Part shown: piece after piece, positions 24,173 through 30,088 of the stretch
How positions within the stretch are numbered: the stretch's first letter is position 1
How the letters are laid out: each line of letters opens with the position of its first letter
DNA from: Yoonia maritima
Lineage (GTDB): Bacteria; Pseudomonadota; Alphaproteobacteria; Rhodobacterales; Rhodobacteraceae
Direction of reading: 5' to 3'
Assembly: GCF_002933395.1 (NCBI RefSeq)
Contig: NZ_PKFN01000007.1
Coordinates: 558,001-622,000 of the forward strand
Length of the DNA stretch: 64,000 nucleotides
The notes under the pieces: generated by a model
Seen by the model: the letters and a program-made list of their open reading frames with translations, nothing else
Database searches by the model: none
What the model was told of the DNA's origin: nothing
Position numbers and translations under genes: made by a program

Positions 24173-24886
24173 ATGCGTGTCTTGCTGGTCGAGGACGACC
24201 CAACAACATCCAAAAGCATCGAATTGATGCTGACCCATGCCAACCTAAACGTCTATGCGACTGATCTTGGTGAAGAGGGGATCGATCTTGCGAAGCTATA
24301 TGATTACGATCTTATCTTACTTGATCTGAATCTGCCGGATATGAACGGCTATGAGGTACTGCGTCAGCTACGCCTTAGCCGGATTGATACGCCAATCCTT
24401 ATCCTGTCGGGCGATGATGGTACCGAAAGCAAGCTCAAAGGGTTTGGCTTTGGTGCGGATGACTATCTGACCAAACCTTTCCACCGCGAAGAACTTGTTG
24501 CACGCATTCATGCGATTATTCGACGCTCTAAGGGGCACGCGCAGTCCATTATCAAAACGGGTCGCATTGACGTTAATCTAGATGCCAAAACGGTGAGCGT
24601 GGGCGCAAGCACGGTGCATCTGACAGGCAAGGAATACCAGATGCTCGAACTTCTGAGCTTGCGTAAAGGAACGACACTGACAAAAGAGATGTTTCTGAAC
24701 CACCTTTACGGCGGGATGGATGAACCTGAACTTAAAATCATCGATGTTTTCATCTGTAAGTTGCGCAAAAAGCTGAGCGAGGCCACTTCAGGTGAAAACT
24801 ATATCGAAACAGTTTGGGGGCGTGGATATGTTCTACGTGATCCTGAACCGGTATCTCAAGTCGAACCAATAGCGGTGAGCGCGTAA
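24173..24886 (+). CDS. ctrA: Response regulator transcription factor CtrA
   Basis: 237-aa OmpR-type master regulator; in Rhodobacterales it mainly controls motility, gene-transfer-agent and related genes rather than being essential. The receiver domain has the phosphoacceptor Asp51 ([14 protein letters not shown]), Lys in LTKPFHREE, and a winged-helix domain in residues 125-225. It follows sciP, and chpT, its phosphodonor, is 20 kb upstream. Confidence 0.96.
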
Positions 24887-29249: not shown

Positions 29250-29266
29250 GTATTTTGTTCTCAAAT

Positions 29267-29281
29267 GTTCCCAAAAAGTTC
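29267..29281 (+). promoter_or_regulatory. Consensus LexA (SOS) box GTTC-N7-GTTC
   Basis: GTTC at 29267-29270 and 29278-29281 are separated by exactly 7 nt, the direct-repeat operator of alphaproteobacterial LexA. A further GTTC lies at 29257-29260. The box is 58 nt upstream of the start of a 40-codon gene and 17 nt after the recG stop. A search of this window gave no other such pair to my eye. Confidence 0.65.
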
Positions 29282-29338
29282 TTTACCGAAGGTTAATTCC
29301 ATGAGAACAAAGTGGCAACAGAACAAAGGAGCAACAAA

Positions 29339-29461
29339 ATGGCTAAGGAAATCAAAGACGTTATTGTCCGGTCCCGTGACACGATTATCTCTGATGCGCT
29401 TGGCGTTGTTGCTTTGATGGTCATGTTGTTTGTCGGATTATCCCTACCCGGATTAGTCTGA
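29339..29461 (+). CDS. 40-aa single-pass membrane peptide, candidate SOS-induced
   Basis: Small ORF of 40 codons preceded by AAAGGAGC at 7-nt spacing, an excellent ribosome binding site. The peptide has a charged N-terminal third (MAKEIKDVIVRSRDTIIS) and then one hydrophobic helix (about residues 20-37, containing VVALMVMLFVGL). I do not recognise a named family. A LexA-type box lies upstream and a terminator follows at 29607. Small SOS-induced membrane proteins that block division (Caulobacter SidA) are a functional precedent, not a demonstrated homologue. Confidence 0.7.
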   Translation: MAKEIKDVIVRSRDTIISDALGVVALMVMLFVGLSLPGLV

Positions 29462-29606
29462 CGTGCCTGCGCGACGCGGGTTTGGTTACCCTCACATTGC
29501 ACTGTCCCACATACGCAATGCTGAACGACCTGCCTGTCTAATATCCTGAACGGGGTTTTGCCTCTCCCGAAGGAAGTTTGACCGAACCCGTGTCGCGAAA
29601 AACCTG

Positions 29607-29643
29607 CCGCCGCCACTCTGTCCCGGGTGTGCGGCGGTTTTTT
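29607..29643 (+). terminator. Rho-independent terminator downstream of the small membrane peptide
   Basis: CCGCCGC (29607-29613) and GCGGCGG (29631-29637) form a 7-bp stem followed by TTTTTT. It ends the transcript of the 40-aa gene (or of the 145-nt untranslated part that follows it) and abuts the convergent IscU-like gene. Confidence 0.85.
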
Positions 29644-30088
29644 ATGCGTCTGTCTTAGAAGCTTCGAGCGCATCAAGCGTTGCATCAAACGCAAGTAGGA
29701 TTGAAGCGTGGCGGTTCTTGTAGTCTTTTGCAGGCTGTAGAACCTCAAGATCGTTGAACGGGGCAGCAGGGACCGCACCGTCGTTCTTGAGCATATCAAA
29801 TAGCTGATCACGTCCTGCTTTGATCTGCCCGGGTGTTAGGCCAACGATATTTGCCCCAACCACCGCCGCTGCCGCCTGACCAAGCGCGCATGCTTTTACG
29901 TCTTGGCCGTAGTCGGTGATAACCCCGTCGTCTAATTGGACATCAACCGTCACCGTCGATCCACAAAGTGGCGCGCGTTTTTTTGCGGTTGCAGTCGGCG
30001 TATTGAGTCGGGTCGTTCGTGGCATATCCGCTGCCAACGCCAGAATCCGACCGGAATAGAGTTTGATCATATCTGTTTCTGCTGACAT
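29642..30088 (-). CDS. Iron-sulfur cluster assembly scaffold protein (IscU/NifU-N family)
   Basis: 148-aa IscU-like protein. Two of the three scaffold cysteines are visible (APLCGSTV and VKACALGQAA), but the third position reads NRHASI, without cysteine, so a His may replace it or the protein is a non-canonical scaffold. No suf or isc genes adjoin. It is divergent from hisI and ends at the terminator of the small peptide gene. Confidence 0.87.
   Translation of the reverse strand: MSAETDMIKLYSGRILALAADMPRTTRLNTPTATAKKRAPLCGSTVTVDVQLDDGVITDYGQDVKACALGQAAAAVVGANIVGLTPGQIKAGRDQLFDMLKNDGAVPAAPFNDLEVLQPAKDYKNRHASILLAFDATLDALEASKTDA

Follow-up and report, generated by a model that had tools for sequence, protein, structure and literature searches.

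A putative LexA-controlled transcript behind recG in Rhodobacteraceae, encoding a predicted membrane microprotein and ending in a structured 3′ RNA

What is a 40-codon reading frame doing directly behind a DNA-repair operon, under an operator of the LexA type, and what might its product do for a damaged cell? The frame lies in a 64,000-nt stretch of the Yoonia maritima genome (hereafter, the window), and an original prediction, made from the letters of this stretch, had taken it for an SOS-controlled membrane peptide and a possible division inhibitor in the manner of Caulobacter SidA. Comparison across related genomes added to that prediction a second LexA-type site, a family-wide spread, and a structured RNA between the gene and its terminator; judged on sequence evidence, the locus is likely to give rise to a single SOS transcript that yields both a microprotein and a 3′ RNA.

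The peptide gene and its distribution

The gene (29,339–29,461, + strand, 40 codons plus stop) is preceded by a good ribosome binding site, GGAG at 29,328–29,331, as had been proposed, and a Shine–Dalgarno-like tetramer at most 20 nt from the start was found in 77 of 80 homologous loci. A peptide search gave matches in 85 of 146 genomes, from which 81 loci were taken by peptide match alone and 80 used, one (L081, genome G056) being spurious; four matches in other families (E 0.19–0.94) fall outside the 80. The place after ligA-recG was borne out, with recG upstream on the same strand in 80 of the 81 loci. Ahead of ligA-recG and the peptide gene, the window also carries a response regulator gene (24,173–24,886) with Pfam receiver and C-terminal DNA-binding domains, which we take to be ctrA.

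Within the family, the gene is nearly everywhere. A profile built on 30 peptides found the gene in 284 of the 292 genomes sampled across the order, in 111 of 112 genera, and the profile matches listed were all in Rhodobacteraceae. Behind recG, five of the eight genomes missed by the profile carry a diverged copy (L260, L262, L264, L266, L267; L262 recognized by eye), and no copy was found there in the other three (G313, G360, G396); the 284 profile matches and five diverged copies therefore bring the total to 289 of the 292 genomes. In a sample of 385 genomes from the class, the only convincing matches were in five Rhodobacteraceae, the other 30 standing at E 0.001 or worse and most of them within longer frames. 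Outside the family, 67 recG loci were examined (out of 140 non-family genomes with recG); none of them held the peptide, and one had the box described below within 500 nt, against a shuffle rate of 1.2%. A search for plasmid homologues returned none. By these sequence searches, the peptide gene is a near-universal gene of Rhodobacteraceae. Two Paracoccus-like loci (L266, L201) encode copies of 31 and 34 amino acids that are nearly the helix alone, with the box retained.

Evolutionarily, the peptide is under purifying selection, yet it is changing faster than RecG: over four divergence bins its mean pN and pS are 0.034 and 0.158, 0.151 and 0.362, 0.195 and 0.549, and 0.204 and 0.599, against recG pN values of 0.024, 0.071, 0.101 and 0.107 in the matching bins. 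Asp19 and Gly22 are present in all 77 forty-residue members and are invariant too in a second set of 70, while residues 20–40 bear no charge in any of the 77. Hydropathy and helix prediction agree on the single hydrophobic helix that had been anticipated (residues about 20–40), and AlphaFold places helices at 2–11 and 13–35 (mean pLDDT 88, pTM 0.50). From sequence and model together, the product is almost certainly a membrane peptide, which we read as a short amphipathic start followed by one predicted membrane helix, its topology being presumptive. Since the helix is short and uncharged and has two invariant residues near its membrane edge, a specific membrane partner is suggested. No significant match was found in Pfam, NCBIfam, PHROGs, PDB sequences or PDB folds, which for the fold search is as expected of a short helix.

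LexA-type operators and the promoter between them

The direct repeat GTTC-N7-GTTC (GTTCCCAAAAAGTTC), placed at 29,267–29,281 (+ strand) by the original prediction, was recovered at exactly those positions by a pattern scan of the 64-kb window; its closeness to the gene also held, with 57 nt between box and ATG where 58 had been given. Taken alone, the box is no evidence, because the window holds one such repeat where shuffles lead one to expect 1.97, and the whole genome holds 119, fewer than the 174 of the same pattern read backwards. Its significance comes from comparison: the repeat stands between recG and the peptide gene in 79 of the 80 homologous loci (shifted in L057, L069, L077 and probably L071), and it leads back to the same locus in a scan that required no protein. 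That scan, for TGTTC-N7-GTTCTTTAC-N18-GAACAA across genome contigs, found at least 116 loci; among the 116 matches listed, recG was seen just upstream in 113 (the others being L187, L243, which is cut, and L254) and the peptide in 112 (the others being L164 and L239, both cut, L187 and L225), L187 being a chance match in Thermolongibacillus. We call this box O1. With box and peptide frame both conserved among relatives, the proposed LexA-type operator gains support.

On the start side of the promoter lies a second site, O2, which in the window is GAAC-N7-CAAC (29,305–29,319, + strand). Sites of the form GAAC-N7-[GC]AAC occur here in 76 of the 80 loci, both operators in 75, and in several relatives (e.g. 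L273, L274) O2 is a perfect GAAC-N7-GAAC. Between the two operators, a putative promoter was recognized at 29,282–29,310 (+ strand), with TTTACC, 17 nt ending in TGA, and GAACAA. The consensus of the 69 loci that could be set in one register (11 omitted for a one-base spacing change or a shifted or altered box) reads TGTTCnCAAATGTTCtnaaAAAGTTCTTTACannnngttaannataTGaGAACAAAGnnGCAACA, in which TTTACA, a 17-nt spacer ending in TGn, and GAACAA keep promoter spacing, as does the lexA promoter of locus L132 (TTGACA-N17-TAGAAC). The presumed −10 hexamer, GAACAA, is unusual and counts against the SOS reading preferred below. One of the 69 registered loci, L071, sits on the wrong GTTC, which slightly lowers the column values.

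Conservation of the regulatory stretch exceeds that of its surroundings. Over 67 loci grouped by divergence, pairwise identity is 84–92% in the O1 stretch and 83–92% in the O2 stretch, figures in which the columns used to register the loci are favored, against 43–49% at four-fold sites of recG and 30–44% in the upstream flank; columns without a role in the registering are equally high (first GTTC 0.986, TTTAC 0.943, CAAC 0.931). Two further elements were observed nearby: a third GTTC, 10 bp before O1 (29,257–29,260, + strand), whose spacing to the box (29,257–29,270) is N6, unlike the N7 of LexA sites, and which is kept in 59 of the 69 registered loci, and a CtrA-like TTTA-N7-TTAA (29,282–29,296) overlapping the promoter spacer in 38 of the 69, too weak a signal for a CtrA site to be claimed.

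The same box form occurs at lexA in six of six genomes and at recA in six of six, and because these genes share it, control of the peptide unit by LexA, and thus by the SOS response, is very likely. The text of a Dinoroseobacter shibae study lists putative LexA sites at lexA, recA, dprA and other genes (PMC6473078), and recG is absent from its main text, as it is from the main text of a Paracoccus sRNA survey (PMC5107571). Among 18 chosen genomes searched for lexA, four gave no match: G360 and G063 lack the unit, in G084 neither recG nor the peptide was found, and G088 (74% complete) retains peptide and box, a case that speaks against the preferred reading. In G313, G396, G072 and G069, lexA is present and the peptide was not found, which likewise speaks against it; in one of these, G396 (about 2.7 Mb), the operator is retained behind recG and the peptide gene is unrecognizable (L268).

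The 3′ RNA between stop codon and terminator

The predicted terminator of the gene's own proved to be a hairpin at 29,607–29,637 with a T run at 29,638–29,643 (+ strand), and a terminator was obtained in 150 of 155 loci tested. A facing gene (29,642–30,088, 148 amino acids, without a Pfam match at 0.001) uses the same terminator, which looks bidirectional. Between the stop codon and the terminator, a stretch of about 180 nt (29,462–29,644, + strand) contains blocks conserved among 55 close loci, and in the window it folds at −78.6 kcal/mol (z −5.8; none of 200 shuffles as low) into a 19-bp closing helix (arms 29,470–29,488 and 29,579–29,597, + strand, placed by fold and covariation) that encloses hairpins with C-rich loops. 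Across the family, 132 of 150 loci reach a fold z of −3 or lower with the terminator included; without the last 45 nt, which hold it, only 49 of 150 do so and 84 reach −2. At least six pairs spanning at least 70 nt were counted in 134 loci, a raw count made without a shuffle comparison.

Covariation was seen in two kinds of alignment. In an ordinary alignment of 21 close sequences (A3), both sides change in 17 of 54 pairs, 12 of them in the closing helix, and the covariation is 0.208, where shuffling gives 0.137 and sliding at most 0.096. A model built from these sequences (R1), which scores the window RNA at 127 bits, was run on hand-picked loci. Among 36 that carry the gene, 32 gave a match at the expected place with E ≤0.01 (L040 gave 0.036, L046 0.06, and L053 and L148 no match), and none of five loci lacking the peptide did so (L263, L265, L268, L269, L270). 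At E 0.0001, the model matched 53 of 56 picked loci, a set that excludes the 21 training relatives; several of the distant matches span just 55–90 nt, mainly the terminator and outer helix. The alignment of these 53, which leans toward the structure, has a covariation of 0.420, compared with 0.133 on shuffling and no more than 0.076 on sliding. The sense strand is favored because GU cells exceed AC cells (79 to 18 in the body of A3, 138 to 70 in alignment A5), though the structure had been chosen on that strand.

Three C-rich elements recur on the + strand. TGTCCC (29,503–29,508) is present in 127 of 145 distinct RNAs, against 18 in shuffles, and CTGCCTG (29,530–29,536), in the loop of a short hairpin, in 109 of 145, against 5.7; a further loop (29,556–29,564) holds TGCCTC, which is found in 78 of 145. 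In the folds, TGTCCC is unpaired in 124 of 166 occurrences and CTGCC in 195 of 249. As unpaired motifs, UGUCCC and CUGCCUG suggest a regulatory 3′-end RNA, and from the covariation and motifs we hold with good confidence that the RNA is functional. By sequence, most genera show it clearly; in the Rhodobacter and Paracoccus groups it is shorter, and the Rhodobacter RNAs give weak R1 scores of 22.6 and 20.6 bits. Over eight genomes, R1 gave two weak extra matches above a 25-bit threshold, 25.0 bits in G021 and 26.4 bits in G231, the latter above the 22.6 bits of that genome's own locus; both are presumably terminator-like, and as second copies they weaken the claim of a single RNA. Against Rfam, the only match was sub-threshold, to sX13 (19.2 bits against 50), so that the libraries searched contain no family model for the peptide or for the RNA. 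A literature search limited to openly licensed papers likewise returned no description of either, to the extent that their text was available, nor any description of a division hold during DNA repair in Rhodobacteraceae.

Possible roles of the unit and comparison with known systems

We posit that LexA, on two operators flanking the promoter, would hold it shut until RecA-triggered cleavage allows a transcript of roughly 330 nt; that this transcript would encode a 40-amino-acid peptide destined, as predicted, for the inner membrane; and that its folded 3′ end probably acts as a regulatory RNA. A pair of operators flanking a single promoter suggests tight repression that would be lifted only once LexA is largely gone, which is what one would expect for a product harmful if made early. 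The peptide would then most likely bind a membrane protein of the divisome and hold division back while repair proceeds, like SidA in Caulobacter. A division hold is the likeliest single role because of the SidA precedent, and the sequence has no feature that points to division specifically; we therefore advance the brake on division by analogy and tentatively, and the entire chain, from SOS control through to that brake, a shade more tentatively still. The fuller version, in which a LexA-locked transcript delivers two effectors, a family microprotein that holds division and an RNA whose UGUCCC and CUGCCUG pair with target mRNAs, is speculative and on balance rather unlikely. If true, pairing by the C-rich RNA would give the SOS response of Rhodobacteraceae a post-transcriptional branch. 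The peptide gene thus offers a single, conserved and easily deleted candidate for a division hold during DNA repair in this family, and with the structured RNA attached, two products would come from one SOS-controlled transcript.

Other roles were weighed against the brake on division. Most known single-helix microproteins modulate membrane machines, and the peptide could act during SOS on a transporter, a protease, or a DNA-uptake or secretion apparatus; the specific partner suggested by Asp19 and Gly22 would fit such a role, but the neighboring recG and ligA encode soluble enzymes and no gene for a partner is linked, and we consider it an unlikely though serious alternative. The main rival to a division brake is an SOS membrane peptide of the TisB/DinQ type, which would lower the membrane potential, or alter the nucleoid or recombination, and so bring damage tolerance or dormancy. 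Escherichia coli DinQ is described as a single helix of 27 amino acids, with two LexA operators over its promoter and a transcript of about 330 nt (PMC3567139), a close likeness to the unit as we reconstruct it. However, DinQ and TisB are described as type I toxin–antitoxin pairs with antisense RNAs (PMC3567139), and in the general analysis of the peptide locus none came to notice; the gene is fixed and syntenic across the family, unlike a patchy addiction module; and although the coding region masks the ribosome binding site strongly in the window, such masking does not characterize the family (0.661 over 79 loci against 0.664 in a codon-shuffled control). We regard this role, too, as unlikely, and somewhat the less credible of the two. 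That the RNA is the main product and the small frame mainly its carrier would suit the strong covariation and conserved motifs, but it is improbable, since purifying selection acts on the peptide, which moreover persists where the RNA has shrunk, for instance in the Rhodobacter group. Least probable is that the GTTC/GAAC array serves another regulator, alone or with LexA, as the third GTTC, the CtrA-like motif and the ctrA-like gene in the same block might hint, given the identical form of the boxes at lexA and recA and the perfect O2 box of several relatives.

Among known systems, Caulobacter SidA, the precedent for the preferred brake on division, is reported as a 29-amino-acid, SOS-induced inner-membrane protein that inhibits division via FtsW (PMC4211646). 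The present peptide would share with it a very small size, an inner-membrane location (here predicted), LexA control (here presumed from the operators) and an alphaproteobacterial host; it is longer by description, 40 amino acids against the 29 of a protein of known function, and "SidA-like" stays an analogy. We know of no structured 3′ RNA for SidA.

For the RNA, the nearest likeness is UdsC of Rhodobacter sphaeroides, an sRNA cut, according to the available text, from the 3′ end of a small-protein mRNA of about 300 nt (PMC6238624, PMC8625941, PMC9779115); the 3′ RNA would likewise end a small-protein transcript of about that size. They are separate loci, with RSP_7527-udsC starting, by the coordinate in those sources, at 1,289,874 and the peptide homologue at 1,264,762, 25 kb apart. 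For this comparison the chromosome of G231 was assumed to be that of R. sphaeroides 2.4.1; the udsC position there holds another small ORF, which has no match in Pfam (DUF1127 included) and has a hairpin and T run of its own behind it. EcpR1 of rhizobia was also set aside as a different sRNA, recG entering that paper only as a cloning fragment. Set beside DinQ and TisB, with which it shares the single-helix peptide, the unit differs in being near-universal in its family, and in that, where those systems have antisense RNAs, its conserved RNA would instead form the 3′ end of its own transcript.
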